Below are positions 18,452-55,954 of a stretch of DNA of 64,000 nucleotides, piece by piece. Position 1 is the stretch's first letter. Every line of letters starts with the position of its first letter. Below the pieces are notes generated by a model. The model made no database searches, was not told where the DNA came from, and worked only from the letters and a program-made list of their open reading frames with translations. The position numbers and the translations under genes are program-made. This DNA comes from a virus: the IMG/VR virus record IMGVR_UViG_3300022562_001652, positions 49,816 through 113,815 of that record. The stretch is one strand, 5' to 3'.

Positions 18452-20488
18452 TTACACCTCGATCACAGGAGGAACGAGAGAGGTAGTGATGAGCGCGTAG
18501 TCGATGCTCTCCGTCGGAGATATCGTGACTCCTACCGCCAGCGCACCACCGGAGAAGGACGCCGTCACGTTCCTCCATGCGTTGAGGGTGGTCCCGTCGC
18601 GAACGCTGTCCGTGATGGCCTTGTTGTCTCGGTACTGGTTACCGACGGTGTTTACCACCCCGGGCACAGAATTGATCTTCGACAGGTCGCTACCACGACC
18701 CACGAAACGTTCCTCGATCGCCCTGCGCATGTCATAGGAGAAGTGCTTCCAGATCTGGACGACGGTCTCCTGGATGAAAGCGTCGTTGTCGCTAGCGGTA
18801 TACGTCGTCACGACCTTGTCGTTCACGTACGTGACGCCGCGATCGCGATTCACACCACAGACCGTCACTCCGTTCAGGGTGAGATCTCCGACGTGGCCGT
18901 CGTCCTCATTCGACCACGAAGCATCCTGACGTACGCCGAAGCAGTTCACCCGCTTCTTCGTGATCGGCTCTCCTAGAGGAGCTCCTCCGCGCATGCCGGC
19001 GAGAGCGCACGCGTAGGACCACGCCGGCAACCACTCGATAGAGGAGGTCGCCACTTTCAAGAGAAGAAGCTCCTGCCCCGTCACAACCACGTGCGCGCTG
19101 TTCATGGACTGCGCCAACGTGATGAGCTCGTCCTTCGTCCTCTTGGTGCCGATCCATCCCTGGCACTCCGATCGCCCCGCCGTAGAGCTTCGCGTCCGCA
19201 TGGAAGCGGCCAGAGCAGCGGCGATCGAATCGAAGGTAAACGTGCCCTGCGATGCCGTAGCATCGTCGGATACGAGAGCGACGAGCTGGTTGATCCGCGT
19301 AGTCTGCAGAGCGGCGAAGGCGTTGACCCAATCGGCGTTCGTAGAGGTTCCCCGAGTACCGCCGGAAAACCCTGTCTCCGAGAAGATCGCGATCGGACCA
19401 ACTGCCCCCTTCGTGTAGGAGTCGGTATCGTCGACCACCACCGAGCTCTGCTGGTTCACCCAGTCGAGCAGGTCGAAGTTCGTCGCGTACACGTAATACG
19501 AACCCGTCGTCCACGCGATGGATCCGTCGTTGCCGTCAGGCTGTACAGCGGTCGCGTTGTAGATGTCCACGCTGGTAGCATTGTTGTAGGCCGCGATCTT
19601 GAACGTGCCGTTGTTCCCAGCACTGGCCGCACCGGAAATCGTGAGGTACTGGCCAACGTCTGTGGCGAGCATGCCTGTCAGACCAGTGAGCCGCAGCTGA
19701 CCGGCGGCTGCGCCTGCACCCGTGCTCGCAGCCGCTCCGCTTCGGGCAATGATGGGCACAGCAGCTAGAGCATCAAGATACGTCGGATCGAAGCTCCCGA
19801 CGTTCGTGATGAGTGCTGTGCACGTGTACGCAGCCAGAGAATTGATGTACGCGACGATCTCGAGAAGGCTACGGTAGTCGGCGAACGTAATGCTCAGGTT
19901 CTCACCACCAGGACCCCCTGTGACCGACGTCGTCAGCTGCGTCGCGGAGATCGTAAGGCTGCAGGCGGATCCTGCCCCCACGTAGGCGATCGTAAGCTTG
20001 GCATTCTCTCCCAGGCTGGGGGAAACCTCCGTGGTCTGGTTCCCTTGTGGATCGATGGCCTGGATGGTTAGAACACGACCGATCGTGGTGGTGCCCTCTG
20101 CAAGAGCCATCGTGATCGAGTTGGCCTGTAGACCATAGATCTGGCTCTTGAACGTGTGAGGACTCTTAACCAGGCTCGACTGCGTCGAGTTGTTGATCTT
20201 GTAGACGATGATCTTCTGAGCCCCAGCAGGAACACGTTCGTCGTTCGCTGGGTTAGCAACGATGTTAGCTGCCTCCACGATATCGCCTGAGCCGAACACG
20301 CTCTGAACGGCCTTGGCTCCTCCGATGAAGGCCATGATCGTCCGGGGAGGGCCGTAGTCGGCCTCCCCTACGAGAGCGACGATCCCGTTTCCACCGAGCT
20401 GAACATCCTCATACTGCGAGGCGTCGATCTTCGTCGCGGCTCCAGGGCGGATGATGACCGAGCCGTTGAAAACTACGAACCGCGCCAT
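18452..20488 (-). CDS. tail sheath protein
   Basis: 678 residues. Typical sheath features are the N-terminal GIVALVGEADYGPPRTI, the central DLLDWVNQQ ... AIFSETGFSGGTRG, and the C-terminus with GVTYVNDKVVTTYTASDND and SFSGGALAVGVTISPTESID. The C-terminal strand would join neighbouring sheath subunits. Residues about 251-330 are an inserted beta domain (SGAASAGNNGTFKIAAYNNA) with a close copy in the tail spike at 261-3500. The domain would protrude on the tail surface. Start ATG follows GAGGAGGCTTTGAC. Confidence 0.9.
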   Translation of the reverse strand: MARFVVFNGSVIIRPGAATKIDASQYEDVQLGGNGIVALVGEADYGPPRTIMAFIGGAKAVQSVFGSGDIVEAANIVANPANDERVPAGAQKIIVYKINNSTQSSLVKSPHTFKSQIYGLQANSITMALAEGTTTIGRVLTIQAIDPQGNQTTEVSPSLGENAKLTIAYVGAGSACSLTISATQLTTSVTGGPGGENLSITFADYRSLLEIVAYINSLAAYTCTALITNVGSFDPTYLDALAAVPIIARSGAAASTGAGAAAGQLRLTGLTGMLATDVGQYLTISGAASAGNNGTFKIAAYNNATSVDIYNATAVQPDGNDGSIAWTTGSYYVYATNFDLLDWVNQQSSVVVDDTDSYTKGAVGPIAIFSETGFSGGTRGTSTNADWVNAFAALQTTRINQLVALVSDDATASQGTFTFDSIAAALAASMRTRSSTAGRSECQGWIGTKRTKDELITLAQSMNSAHVVVTGQELLLLKVATSSIEWLPAWSYACALAGMRGGAPLGEPITKKRVNCFGVRQDASWSNEDDGHVGDLTLNGVTVCGVNRDRGVTYVNDKVVTTYTASDNDAFIQETVVQIWKHFSYDMRRAIEERFVGRGSDLSKINSVPGVVNTVGNQYRDNKAITDSVRDGTTLNAWRNVTASFSGGALAVGVTISPTESIDYALITTSLVPPVIEV

Positions 20489-41099: not shown

Positions 41100-41405
41100 T
41101 CAGGGTTTGCGCAGACAGCGCGCGTCCGCGATCGCTGCTCGAGCAACGAGCAACCGGACGTTGAAGAGGAGGGCAGCGTGTTGCCCGGCGTCGTAGCACA
41201 CCTCGTCAGGAAGACACTTCTTAGCTAGACACGTTTCCAGGGAGTCGTCGTCTTCGCATGCGTGCGGCTCGCCGACCGGGAGAAGGTCGGCGAGCATCGG
41301 CATATCCAGGCAAGGAAGAGTCTCGGTACGCACGACCACGCTAGGTGGGGGACATGTCTTGCAACAAGCCTCTAGGAGCAGGGTCACCAGAAGGAGAGCT
41401 CTCAT
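41100..41405 (-). CDS. o-spanin-like outer membrane lipoprotein
   Basis: 101 residues from the ATG at 41405, which overlaps the i-spanin stop (ATGA) and has GAGG upstream. The N-terminus MRALLLVTLLLEACCKTCPP is a short signal peptide with a lipobox-like LEAC, so the mature protein should be a lipoprotein. The rest contains several Cys pairs. Together with the overlapping i-spanin gene this fits an Rz/Rz1-type pair that fuses inner and outer membranes at lysis. It is longer than many o-spanins, so some doubt remains. Confidence 0.7.
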   Translation of the reverse strand: MRALLLVTLLLEACCKTCPPPSVVVRTETLPCLDMPMLADLLPVGEPHACEDDDSLETCLAKKCLPDEVCYDAGQHAALLFNVRLLVARAAIADARCLRKP

Positions 41406-41746
41406 GGAGAGTCCTCTTCTTTCTTGGGCCATAGAGAGGCCATCTCCTTTGCCTGCTGCTTGGCGTTCGCGCTCATGTTGCTCTTCAGGATCTCTTGCAG
41501 CAGAGCGTCGGCTTTCGCAAAGGCTGCCTTGTTTCTCTTCTCCTCTTCTTCCTTTTGCATCTCTGAGTCCAGGAGCTCTTTCTCCAACGTAGCGAGGTTC
41601 TCACGCATCGATCCGATGCGTGTGTCACGCTCAGACAGCTCCTTCTTCAGGCTCTTCTCGTCCGACAAGCTGATACGCCACAGGACGAAAAAGAATCCGG
41701 CGAGCACCCCGCCTCCCAGGAGGCTCACCAGGGTATAGACGCTCAT
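41402..41746 (-). CDS. i-spanin-like inner membrane protein
   Basis: 114 residues. One N-terminal membrane segment (residues about 6-26, LVSLLGGGVLAGFFFVLW) is followed by a long charged coiled coil to about residue 95 (KKELSERDTRIGSMRENLAT). This is the plan of Rz i-spanins, anchored in the inner membrane with a periplasmic coil. It overlaps both holin and o-spanin genes by four bases, giving a compact lysis cassette. Confidence 0.75.
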   Translation of the reverse strand: MSVYTLVSLLGGGVLAGFFFVLWRISLSDEKSLKKELSERDTRIGSMRENLATLEKELLDSEMQKEEEEKRNKAAFAKADALLQEILKSNMSANAKQQAKEMASLWPKKEEDSP

Positions 41747-42165
41747 GGGCTCGTCTTGGCGAACCCACGCGCGATGGTGTAGCCGAGCGCCACCAGCGTA
41801 GACTGCGCCAGAGCAAAGGCCTGCGCGACAGGTCCGTCGGTCGGCATGAGGCCTGAAGTCGCCGCCAAGCCTACAGCCAAGCTCACCACAGTGAGCCAGA
41901 ACTCCGTCGTCTTGTACCCAGGCCCTGGCTCGTCCGACTCTCCGTGCTTCACCAGGCCGCGAACCATGGTGTAGCCGAGCGTGGACAGCATCATCGTGAC
42001 GAACGCGATGACCTGTCCGACGACGCCGCTGTCGCTGAGCAGGTGGTTGGCTCCGAGCAGGCCCAGGACGGCGGCCAGCACAGTTAGCCAGAACTCCGTC
42101 GTCTTGTATCCTGGCTTGATGGGTGCTTCTTCCGTAGAAGAGGTCGTGAGAGTTTCAGATGTCAT
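41743..42165 (-). CDS. putative holin with internal duplication
   Basis: 140 residues made of two halves. Each begins PGYKTTEFWLTV and continues through two hydrophobic segments to LGYTMVRGLVK in the first half (about residues 18-74) and LGYTIARGFAK in the second (about 81-137), so four membrane segments are likely. A small multi-span protein directly before the spanins is best explained as a holin. No endolysin lies beside it. Confidence 0.7.
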   Translation of the reverse strand: MTSETLTTSSTEEAPIKPGYKTTEFWLTVLAAVLGLLGANHLLSDSGVVGQVIAFVTMMLSTLGYTMVRGLVKHGESDEPGPGYKTTEFWLTVVSLAVGLAATSGLMPTDGPVAQAFALAQSTLVALGYTIARGFAKTSP

Positions 42166-44708: not shown

Positions 44709-44945
44709 ATGAAGCGAAGACTGCGCATCTCGACCACGAAGCCGAAGGAGCTAGGAGCTCTGATTCGTAGTCTTCGAAAGGATCTTGGCCTCTCCCTCAG
44801 AGAGGTGGCTGAGAAGACGGGGATGGGCACGGCTCACGTGAGCCGGATCGAGCTCGGCCAATCGGTTCCCACGGTGAGCACGCTGAACCGGCTTGCTAGC
44901 GTGCTCAAGGTCAAGTGGGTGCTGGTAGCTAAGGAGAGGAAGTGA
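44709..44945 (+). CDS. Xre-family HTH transcriptional regulator
   Basis: 78 residues. The HTH_3 domain covers residues about 14-70: LGALIRSLRKDLGLSLREVA, then EKTGMGTAHVSRIELGQSVP and LNRLASVLKV. It is a minimal DNA-binding protein without an oligomerisation domain. GGAGAAGAGAGA precedes the ATG. It could control the operator-like sites at 44352-44390 and 40566-40616; binding is inference. Confidence 0.82.
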   Translation: MKRRLRISTTKPKELGALIRSLRKDLGLSLREVAEKTGMGTAHVSRIELGQSVPTVSTLNRLASVLKVKWVLVAKERK

Positions 44946-45315: not shown

Positions 45316-45494
45316 CGATCGCCGAGATGTTCGAAGAGCTGAAGCGCCTCGTGGACGAGGACGAGTACAACGCAGACGACACCGTCGTAGCGATGGTGGT
45401 CGAGAAGTCCGACGGATCTGGTGCCTTCGCGGAGGAGATCGTGTCTCTAGCGCCAGAGAAGTGGGGAGGTCGGACGGTCATCGTGGTGCGGTGA
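45312..45494 (+). CDS. small acidic hypothetical protein
   Basis: 60 residues. Begins MTIAEMFEELKRLVDEDEYN and ends with two strands (AEEIVSLAPEKWGG, TVIVVR). It resembles small acidic alpha/beta phage proteins of unknown function. Start overlaps the previous stop by ATGA. Confidence 0.55.
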   Translation: MTIAEMFEELKRLVDEDEYNADDTVVAMVVEKSDGSGAFAEEIVSLAPEKWGGRTVIVVR

Positions 45495-45682
45495 TGAGAC
45501 CCTCTCGGGAGGAGGGTTTCTGTCTCGCCGAGCGCGAAGAGGAGGCGAAGCATCGGCGAAACAAGAAAGGGGTAGCGGAGTGTGGGACTCCCGCCAAGCA
45601 GGAGGATCTGACGGACGACATCGACGAGGTTACTTGCCCAAGATGCGCCGTTACTCCGCTCTTTCCGAGAGGTACTCAATGA
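45494..45682 (+). CDS. small hypothetical protein with CxxC
   Basis: 62 residues from ATG at 45494 (TGATG overlap). Highly charged, with a single C-terminal TCPRC pair and an ECG upstream, possibly one zinc site. It ends by ATGA overlap with the metalloprotease gene, so the two are probably translated together. Confidence 0.5.
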   Translation: MRPSREEGFCLAEREEEAKHRRNKKGVAECGTPAKQEDLTDDIDEVTCPRCAVTPLFPRGTQ

Positions 45683-46188
45683 AGGCGATAGCTGCCGCGT
45701 GTGTCGTAGCTTTTTCAACTTCCTGTGGATCCTCTACACCTGACTCGAACGCGACGGCGTTGTTCGTGGACATGTCGACTCTGCCGTACCCAGATCGGAT
45801 CGACGACGCTGAGGCCACTGTCGAAGAAACCATCTCGTTTTACGAAGAGCGTGGCTTCTCGATACTCCGAGCCAGTACCAGGGAGACGTCGAACGTGTAC
45901 CTGTACTGGGGGGAAACGACGTATCTTGGGTATACCAGCCACAACCCTGGCGGTGTCGTGATCGTGATTCGAGACCACCTAGCCAACCACCTCGAGTGGT
46001 GGTGGGAAGAGGATGGTTTGGAGCGCTGCAGCCCCGGCATGGCCGACATGACTGGGATCATCATGCATGAAATCGGACACGCTCTCGGGCTCGTGCATGT
46101 CGAGGATGACCGGGACGTGATGGACCCTGGGCTGGTCCCTTGCGAACCGCGTCGACGGTTGTCACAGACGCGGAACGGAGTCTTCTAG
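45679..46188 (+). CDS. matrixin-like lipoprotein metalloprotease
   Basis: 169 residues from ATG at 45679, overlapping the preceding stop. The N-terminus (MKAIAAACVVAFSTSC) is a signal peptide with a candidate lipidated Cys16, though the lipobox is imperfect. The active site is HEIGHALGLVH (His130, Glu131, His134, His140), the full metzincin HExxHxxGxxH zinc motif. It is followed by DVMDP, the Met-turn (Met148). The domain is small but of matrixin plan. It is presumably exported and anchored in the envelope of the infected cell. Substrate unknown; superinfection exclusion, lysis or host surface remodelling are possible. Confidence 0.8.
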   Translation: MKAIAAACVVAFSTSCGSSTPDSNATALFVDMSTLPYPDRIDDAEATVEETISFYEERGFSILRASTRETSNVYLYWGETTYLGYTSHNPGGVVIVIRDHLANHLEWWWEEDGLERCSPGMADMTGIIMHEIGHALGLVHVEDDRDVMDPGLVPCEPRRRLSQTRNGVF

Positions 46189-46202: not shown

Positions 46203-46469
46203 ATGTCGTTGCTTGTTGCACCTTCACGAGGAATGACGAACAGGTTCATACGCTTCCTTCGTTACGTAGGGATGTTTCGCCCGTACCCAAGGATCAGCGT
46301 TCTCGACGATGCTGCCGACATCGGCGGCGCGCTCATAGTGATGCTGGTGCTGTGTCCTGTCTTCATCGCAGAACTGCTGCGGCGTCGGAGAGAGAGTAAA
46401 GCCCACATTATCCGGGTGGTCGGATCCTTGGGTCAGCTGTCGGGGTCGGAAAGAAAGGCGCTACAGTGA
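46203..46469 (+). CDS. small membrane protein
   Basis: 88 residues from ATG at 46203 with GGGAGGT upstream. A basic N-terminus precedes one membrane helix at about 41-58 (GGALIVMLVLCPVFIAEL), then RRRRES, giving a likely N-out/C-in topology. It follows the metalloprotease gene by 14 bases and may work with it at the membrane. Confidence 0.6.
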   Translation: MSLLVAPSRGMTNRFIRFLRYVGMFRPYPRISVLDDAADIGGALIVMLVLCPVFIAELLRRRRESKAHIIRVVGSLGQLSGSERKALQ

Positions 46470-48560: not shown

Positions 48561-49108
48561 AACCTTTGCACTGCGTCTATCCTGAGTGCGACGGCGTGAT
48601 GGAGCCGAGAAAACCCTGTGAAGAATGTTCCAGCGCTAGCAAGAAGACCATGTGGGAATGGCAGTGCGGGAAATGCAACACGGCGCGGTGCGCCTCGATT
48701 ATTGAGTACCCTCCGATTTTCATAAAGGAAGAGATGATGGAGATGGTAGGAAAGAAGCGAGAAAACGAACTGCTGGATGTTGTCATAGGAGGGGTACACG
48801 GGTTCTACGAGAAGACCATGAGACACCCTGTGGGTGTTCTGTTGAGTGAGAAGGACTTCGAGGAGCTATATCGTCTTGTGACGTCTTCGGGACCATTCAA
48901 GAGTGTGCCGATACAGGCCAAGCACACACCCGTCTCGATCGGGAAAGACTTCATAACGAGGGAGGAACAGTGGTTGGAAGTAACCACAAGCGTAGGGCAC
49001 GTAAGAGTAGCCCCCAGCGCGTTCGTGGTGGGGGGAGCGCTTGTGCTGGACGACTACACGTGGAATTCTGAAGCGGGGGCTTATCTGAGAGCCATGTACA
49101 GGCGATGA
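48557..49108 (+). CDS. zinc-ribbon hypothetical protein
   Basis: 183 residues from ATG 48557 (ATGA). N-terminal zinc motifs CVYPECDG, CEECSS and WQCGKCNTARC. The C-terminal part (GVLLSEKDFEELYRLVTSSG, VTTSVGHVRVAPSAFVVGGA) is alpha/beta. Two-domain phage protein of unknown function. Confidence 0.6.
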   Translation: MKPLHCVYPECDGVMEPRKPCEECSSASKKTMWEWQCGKCNTARCASIIEYPPIFIKEEMMEMVGKKRENELLDVVIGGVHGFYEKTMRHPVGVLLSEKDFEELYRLVTSSGPFKSVPIQAKHTPVSIGKDFITREEQWLEVTTSVGHVRVAPSAFVVGGALVLDDYTWNSEAGAYLRAMYRR

Positions 49109-49275
49109 AGTGCGAGATGGTGGACGTGTTCCCGAGCTGGGAAGAAGAGAGCGCTGGGGAGCCGATCGAAGAAGAATGCCAAGAGGAAGCGGTGACGCGG
49201 ATCGAAGGACTCCCGTGTTGCGAATACCACGCCATCCGCTGTCGCATCGAAGAGCTCGAAGAGAGCCCTTTGTAA
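49105..49275 (+). CDS. small acidic protein
   Basis: 56 residues, overlapping the preceding stop (ATGA). Strongly acidic with four Cys (MKCEMVDVFP, EEECQEEAV, GLPCCEYHAIRC). May bind one metal. Below typical gene-finder length but coupled to its neighbour. Confidence 0.5.
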   Translation: MKCEMVDVFPSWEEESAGEPIEEECQEEAVTRIEGLPCCEYHAIRCRIEELEESPL

Positions 49276-49760: not shown

Positions 49761-49990
49761 AGAAGACCGTCGGTCTCACCACCCCCAAAGAAACGATCAC
49801 GGTGGAGGCCCTGAGGTGCCGAGATTGTGGGCGGTTGGTTATTTCGCTCGACGATCACAGGATCACCAAGCACAAATGCTCGGGAGCATGGAACGTCGAG
49901 TTCTCAGAACACGTCGAGCCAGAAGAAATCAGAAAGGCCATCAGAGGGGCCTTCAAGCAGAGGACAAAACCACCTTTGGATAGGTACTAA
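49757..49990 (+). CDS. small zinc-binding protein
   Basis: 77 residues. CRDCGRLVISLDDHRITKHK followed by a further Cys gives a C2HC/C2H2-like arrangement. The C-terminus is basic. Possibly a small nucleic-acid-binding protein. Confidence 0.55.
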   Translation: MKKTVGLTTPKETITVEALRCRDCGRLVISLDDHRITKHKCSGAWNVEFSEHVEPEEIRKAIRGAFKQRTKPPLDRY

Positions 49991-55387: not shown

Positions 55388-55954
55388 ATGACCAAGCACG
55401 TCATCGTTTCGCGTCATCCCGCCGCCGTGTCTTTCATCCGGGCCGAGTGCCCGGAATTCGCGGACGCGGAAGTGCTCGCGTCCGCCACGGCGGAACAGGT
55501 CCGCGACGCGATCATCGCAGGCAACCTGCCACTTCACCTCGCGGTGGAAGCCCGCGAGGTCTGGGCCGTGGAGTTCGCCGGCTCCGCGCCGCGTGGGGCC
55601 GAGTATGGCCTCGATGAAATGCGCGCGGCGGGGGCGCGCATCGCGAAGTACGCGGTAGCGCACCGGTCGTGCGCCGGTTCGGGATACGAGCACCACGATC
55701 CGTGCTCGTTCCTGGCTTCGGAGCACGTGGTCGACACGCAAACCGAGGAGCGTGTCCCGGTTTGCGTTTGGCATCAGGCCCGGTGTCTTTCCGCAAAGCG
55801 GTACCGGAAGGTTGCGGGTCCCGACGATCCCCAGCCGGATGGGGCTGTATGGGCCCCGTACGGCTGGAACGATGGATGGTATCGGTGGGATTGGATGTAC
55901 CACCTTCCCACCGGGCCGGATGATCGACCGCAACCCACATCCCCACGGCCGTAG
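55388..55954 (+). CDS. Csx16-family (Cas_VVA1548) protein with zinc-like C-terminus
   Basis: 188 residues from ATG 55388 with AAAGGAG upstream. Residues 1-92 follow the Csx16 pattern: VIVSRHPAAVSFI, then AIIAGNLPLHLAVEA, then PRGAEYGLDEMRAAGARIAK and YAV. Csx16 is a CRISPR ancillary family near type III systems, and from memory members were reported to degrade cyclic oligoadenylate (ring nuclease). No cas genes are here, so a phage anti-CRISPR or anti-CBASS role is plausible. The C-terminal 95 residues are Cys/His/Trp-rich (CAGSGYEHHDPC, PVCVWHQARC) and unusual for the family. Confidence 0.75.
   Translation: MTKHVIVSRHPAAVSFIRAECPEFADAEVLASATAEQVRDAIIAGNLPLHLAVEAREVWAVEFAGSAPRGAEYGLDEMRAAGARIAKYAVAHRSCAGSGYEHHDPCSFLASEHVVDTQTEERVPVCVWHQARCLSAKRYRKVAGPDDPQPDGAVWAPYGWNDGWYRWDWMYHLPTGPDDRPQPTSPRP

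Follow-up and report, generated by a model that had tools for sequence, protein, structure and literature searches.

What would a phage do with an exported zinc protease? The question is raised by a gene in the 113.8-kb IMG/VR record IMGVR_UViG_3300022562_001652, of which a stretch of 64,000 nucleotides (record positions 49,816 to 113,815, hereafter the window) was analysed. The record belongs to a myovirus, a large tailed phage whose host was probably Gram-negative, and its minus strand carries SPO1-like capsid, sheath, and portal genes. Positions below are those of the window unless the record or another contig is named.

The gene, its zinc site and its predicted fold

The open reading frame, for which the coordinates given in a preliminary description of the window were exact, is a real gene. 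In support of the start codon, the gene overlaps the preceding ORF by ATGA and has a purine-rich ribosome binding site (RBS) of the GAGAGG type; its codon usage is that of a coding sequence in the source phage. Its surroundings on the plus strand are small non-structural genes, and the structural genes and a cassette of spanin-like and transmembrane (TM) proteins are on the opposite strand; ThyX, a RecE-like exonuclease (minus strand), and a Cro/CI-type regulator are encoded around the matrixin gene (Table 1). The preliminary description had put the metzincin and its export signal into a tight operon, next to a small membrane protein, and a compact run of genes on one strand was indeed recovered, with the ATGA overlap upstream and the TM protein downstream. 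Family searches with the upstream 62-aa ORF gave no match, and for the downstream membrane protein (Pfam included) neither a family nor a known relative was found.

Table 1. Features of the matrixin locus and of the source record discussed in the text.
Feature	Position	Strand	Basis
Matrixin-type (M10) metalloprotease, lipoprotein-like N-terminal signal, 169 aa	45679..46188	+	PF00413, predicted fold, export-signal control
Predicted signal peptide MKAIAAACVVAFSTS with lipobox Cys16, Gly at +2	45679..45726	+	PROSITE-type rule and hydrophobicity
Zinc site HEIGHALGLVH (H130, E131, H134, H140) and Met-turn Met148	46066..46122	+	Sequence; DNA pattern control
Upstream 62-aa ORF, CPRC motif, ATGA overlap with the matrixin gene	45494..45682	+	Sequence
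Downstream 88-aa protein, one predicted TM segment, RBS GGGAGG, 14 bp past the matrixin gene	46203..46469	+	Hydropathy, translation
Cro/CI-type HTH regulator upstream of the matrixin gene, same strand	44709..44945	+	PF13560 E 1e-14, PF01381 E 2e-14
Spanin-like overlapping gene pair	41100..41746	-	Translations; by anatomy only
Small TM protein with duplicated internal segment, beside the spanin-like pair	41743-42165	-	Translation
Lysyl oxidase domain protein	L003:2263-2892, record 19763-20392	-	PF01186, LOXL2 match

Two further observations concern the plus-strand small-gene region. Between 50000 and 58000 the GC content rises from about 56% to 60-65%, a shift in composition within the region. 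At 55388-55954 (plus strand) a protein with a Csx16-like N-terminal domain (PF09652, E 2e-9) and a C-terminal extension is encoded. Csx16 has been confirmed as a cA4 ring nuclease (PMC12409355), which makes this product a candidate for countering type III CRISPR.

The matrixin sequence begins MKAIAAACVVAFSTSC-GSSTPDSN... and has HEIGHALGLVHVEDDRDVMDP near its end. A full HExxHxxGxxH zinc site with a Met-turn had been reported, and it was confirmed as HEIGHALGLVH at residues 130-140 with Met148 eight residues after H140 (VEDDRDVM); all zinc ligands, the catalytic Glu, and the Met-turn Met are present. A DNA pattern for H-E-x-G-H-x-L-G-L-x-H occurred once in the 64-kb window and in none of 100 shuffles. 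The Pfam family Matrixin (PF00413) scored 29.7 bits against a cut-off of 24, in a match that covers only profile positions 102-137. NCBIfam returned only weak partial matches, the myxobacterial MXAN_2677 family among them, and PHROGs gave nothing convincing and no family for the protein. From motif and family score the product is a putative matrixin-type zinc protease. Met occupies the Met-turn column in at least 90% of the rows of two alignments of relatives (A1 and A3), most of which were picked by the zinc motif and part also by this Met, so that ligand conservation there is circular and built in. A profile of the protein together with its distant relatives matched MMPs in the PDB (E about 1e-21), with the relatives carrying much of the score.

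By structure prediction, suggested as a check in the preliminary description, the mature domain would fold as a matrixin. The AF2 model, based on a curated alignment with 40 distant relatives, reached pLDDT 72 and pTM 0.71, and its order of elements (beta1-alphaA-beta2-beta3-beta4-beta5-alphaB) is the matrixin order. The top solved Foldseek matches were MMP and karilysin catalytic domains (VIA Z 14.7, rmsd 2.4, 134-135 residues, TM about 0.6), and among predicted viral structures Foldseek retrieved metalloproteases of other phages, including Lactobacillus phage 3-521 and, weakly, Maribacter phage Colly_1. An earlier AF2 model from a shallower mixed alignment was poor (pLDDT 64, no PDB match under 1e-3), and because that model was not significant the fold call leans partly on the added relatives. 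We predict a whole-domain metzincin fold with moderate confidence.

Export signal and candidate lysis genes of the phage

The N-terminus fits a PROSITE-type lipoprotein rule, and the gene is the only called gene of the whole record to do so. When charge, h-region, and lipobox were tested together on the 529 open stretches of the window that start with ATG, two passed, the matrixin gene being one of them. The lipoprotein-like signal peptide claimed earlier thus stood up to the control, with a lipobox, FSTSC, that is weak. Judged from these sequence features, export of the protein is well supported and lipidation at Cys16 is probable; given the weak lipobox, plain SPI secretion is a possible alternative. 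The mature domain contains two cysteines (C117 and C155), which would fit an oxidising compartment.

The candidate lysis genes of the phage lie elsewhere. In the spanin-like pair, 41402-41746 encodes a protein with an N-terminal TM segment and a charged helical stretch, and 41100-41432 a Cys/Pro-rich, lipoprotein-like protein; family searches with the pair and with the adjacent small TM protein gave no confident match. The pair points to a diderm host, with an outer membrane, and no evidence was found for the predatory host that the preliminary description had invoked. No i-spanin adjoins the matrixin gene at its locus, the spanin-like pair being separate and on the other strand. The matrixin was also considered as a replacement for an o-spanin (Rz1), and this was rejected because the record has its spanin-like pair elsewhere. 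Six Pfam families of endolysins were negative in the record, and the only endolysin candidate found was an NlpC/P60 protein just left of the window start (record 48787-49254, minus strand), on the strand of the structural genes. The matrixin gene lies about 3.5-4 kb from the spanin/TM cassette and about 46 kb from this candidate.

Phage relatives and proposed function

Tblastn and pattern searches of IMG/VR, GTDB genomes, and INPHARED revealed no orthologue or close relative of the matrixin. Distant relatives were gathered through the zinc motif. Of the matches listed in a motif scan of IMG/VR, 125 were examined and 100 of them had the metzincin motif in frame, which gives at least 100 such motifs in viral contigs; of these 100, 46 had it behind a signal-like N-terminus and 12 also had a lipobox by rule. 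A second scan of viral contigs found the motif in at least 599 stretches. Several of the viral-contig matrixins lie near phage genes, namely those for a DNA polymerase and a head maturation protease (L040), a baseplate wedge (L101), and the small (L035) and large (L016) terminase subunits, which indicates that these contigs are phages. Among cultured phages, Maribacter phage Molly encodes a zinc metallopeptidase of 199 aa that includes a lipoprotein part, described in 2021 (PMC8776804), and the gene of Colly_1 (Colly1_9) reads MKYLILIALSSLLFLSCSKEE...HEIAHVLGLGH. Such genes had been called rare in phages, a claim that these counts and the published lipoprotein matrixin of Molly and Colly contradict. 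Phage lipoprotein matrixins are already known as a kind, and by its sequence the present protein is a distant new member with a putative function; it adds a very distant member to a group of little-studied phage matrixins with export signals that is not a rarity. An Acinetobacter "phage" record with annotated matrixins was rejected as a phage precedent, as it sits among the host genes dnaK, grpE, and purK.

In our view the protein is probably exported by Sec and anchored in the envelope, where, as a protease, it would trim proteins of the host envelope in the course of infection. The infected host would export the matrixin through Sec and would probably lipidate it at Cys16. The protein would then sit on the envelope, in the outer membrane by the borrowed +2 Gly rule if the host sorts lipoproteins like enterobacteria. 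The catalytic domain would face the periplasm or the cell surface, where it may cleave host envelope proteins. The likeliest use would be the remodelling or trimming of surface and envelope proteins, leading to receptor loss against superinfection or to a weakened envelope before release. The preliminary description had proposed envelope cleavage for exclusion, lysis, or reshaping of the surface; envelope proteolysis is a reasonable proposal, and the three purposes are inseparable by sequence.

The position of the gene bears on these purposes. It lies outside the late/lysis operon of a phage with its own spanin-like pair, which fits superinfection exclusion or surface remodelling, and both here and in Colly, where 34 kb separate the matrixin from the amidase, the distance from the lysis enzymes fits better with an action earlier in infection. 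One reading is superinfection exclusion, in which an early lipoprotein protease would remove or clip the phage receptor or another surface protein. It agrees with the location in a plus-strand non-structural run that has the HTH regulator, ThyX, and the RecE-like exonuclease around it, and we regard it as tentative and, taken by itself, rather unlikely. Lipoproteins are the classic exclusion proteins, but these, T5 Llp for example, block receptors by binding and not by proteolysis. A literature search found no relevant paper that makes this link.

Other viral contigs bring lysis into consideration. Matrixin genes were found at short distances from endolysin genes in L099 (M15, 84 bp), L096 (M15, 186 bp), L116 (lysozyme, 198 bp), L068 (amidase, about 430 bp), and L040 (lysozyme, 754 bp). 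Among 17 viral records holding both, the matrixin lay less than 1 kb from the endolysin in five, versus 1.3 expected (P about 0.006, post hoc); without one near-duplicate the count was 4 of 16 (P about 0.024, post hoc). In at least four other viral lineages a matrixin has an endolysin as its neighbour, which supports a lysis role for some members, and this recurrent neighbourhood in unrelated viral contigs offers a testable case of a membrane-anchored protease in envelope disruption by some phages. In L116 the order is lysozyme, lipoprotein matrixin, and an ATGA-coupled TM protein. Two of the contigs, L116 (5268-7246, minus strand) and L099 (671-1638, plus strand), are related, each with a lipoprotein matrixin directly beside the endolysin.

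For the source phage itself, an anchored protease that weakens the outer membrane or the envelope cross-links late, alongside endolysin and spanins, is an unlikely auxiliary. These neighbourhoods speak for it, as does Listeria Mtz/Tim, which sensitises cells to lysins (PMC8235301), but the gene stands on the opposite strand to the spanin/TM cassette and kilobases away from it, the phage has its own spanin-like pair, the endolysin candidate is far off, and the Colly matrixin is likewise distant from its amidase.

A second matrix-type enzyme is encoded in the record, outside the window. This putative lysyl oxidase matches PF01186 (E 2.6e-29) and LOXL2 (E 1.4e-16). It retains the copper motif HGHVH, and in the LOXL2 alignment a Lys (HKQSFCL) and a Tyr (DVY) fall on the residues that form LTQ in LOX enzymes. 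Its N-terminus, MRSLLPIFLAACGG, is short and lipoprotein-like, and lipidation is uncertain because the signal, at 12 residues, is too short for the usual rule. The protein had no match in INPHARED and no close relative in IMG/VR, and its best plasmid match was from Gemmatirosa (27%). Bacteria of several phyla are known to have lysyl oxidases (PMC4448552). The presence of a second lipoprotein-like enzyme in the same phage hints at a wider phage use of matrix-type enzymes. Joint travel of matrixin and lysyl oxidase was not supported: none of 50 other matrixin-bearing viral records had the oxidase and no control genome gave a match, but the same query does find the copy in the source record. We hold it very unlikely that the two form a surface kit, in which the zinc-dependent matrixin and the copper-dependent oxidase, each tethered as a lipoprotein, would trim and cross-link envelope proteins of the host during infection, so as to exclude other phages or control release.

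The lysyl oxidase is also relevant to the reading of the matrixin as host-derived cargo for feeding or matrix degradation, which would benefit the infected cell or aid spread. The flavophage authors propose degradation of matrix proteins for Molly (PMC8776804), and the oxidase is another enzyme of the matrix type in the same record, but anchoring would keep the protease on the cell and no close bacterial source of the gene was found in the search, the best full-domain bacterial match having 28% identity; we judge this reading quite improbable. It is highly doubtful that the protease has decayed or lost its activity, or that it is a toxin inhibited by the downstream membrane protein. Inhibitor-like partners often accompany bacterial matrixins (Listeria Tim, PMC8235301; the karilysin/PotA complex) and the neighbour is a small membrane protein, but every ligand, the catalytic Glu, and the Met-turn are retained, and the neighbour shows neither a signal peptide nor a TIMP-like feature and matched no family.

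Comparison with known systems

The proposed envelope-anchored protease shares its predicted fold, zinc site, and Met-turn with karilysin of Tannerella forsythia and with MMP catalytic domains (MEROPS M10A). Identity to these is 12-16%, and the phage protein differs from them in having no propeptide or C-terminal domains and in its lipoprotein-type N-terminus. In Listeria, a secreted metzincin of phage origin, Mtz, has a lipoprotein partner, Tim, and the pair provides an experimental precedent for altered cell walls and lysin sensitivity (PMC8235301). Both systems have a phage-origin metzincin, secreted in Listeria and predicted to be exported here, together with XRE regulators and an adjoining gene for a membrane-associated protein. 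In Listeria, Mtz is secreted by SPI and it is Tim that is lipidated, whereas in the source phage the protease has the lipobox and its neighbour a single predicted TM helix. The lipoprotein matrixins of the uncultivated viruses L040, L116, and L099 resemble the present protein in size, lipobox, and zinc site, but they lie in or near lysis genes and the source-phage matrixin does not. The matrixin of Molly and Colly (PMC8776804) is likewise a small protein of about 170-200 aa with a lipoprotein signal, encoded by a myophage of 110-125 kb away from the lysis enzyme. It aligns with the present protein in the zinc-site region only (31% over 59 residues, E 0.003), its zinc site reads HEIAHVLGLGH, and its host possibly belongs to another phylum.
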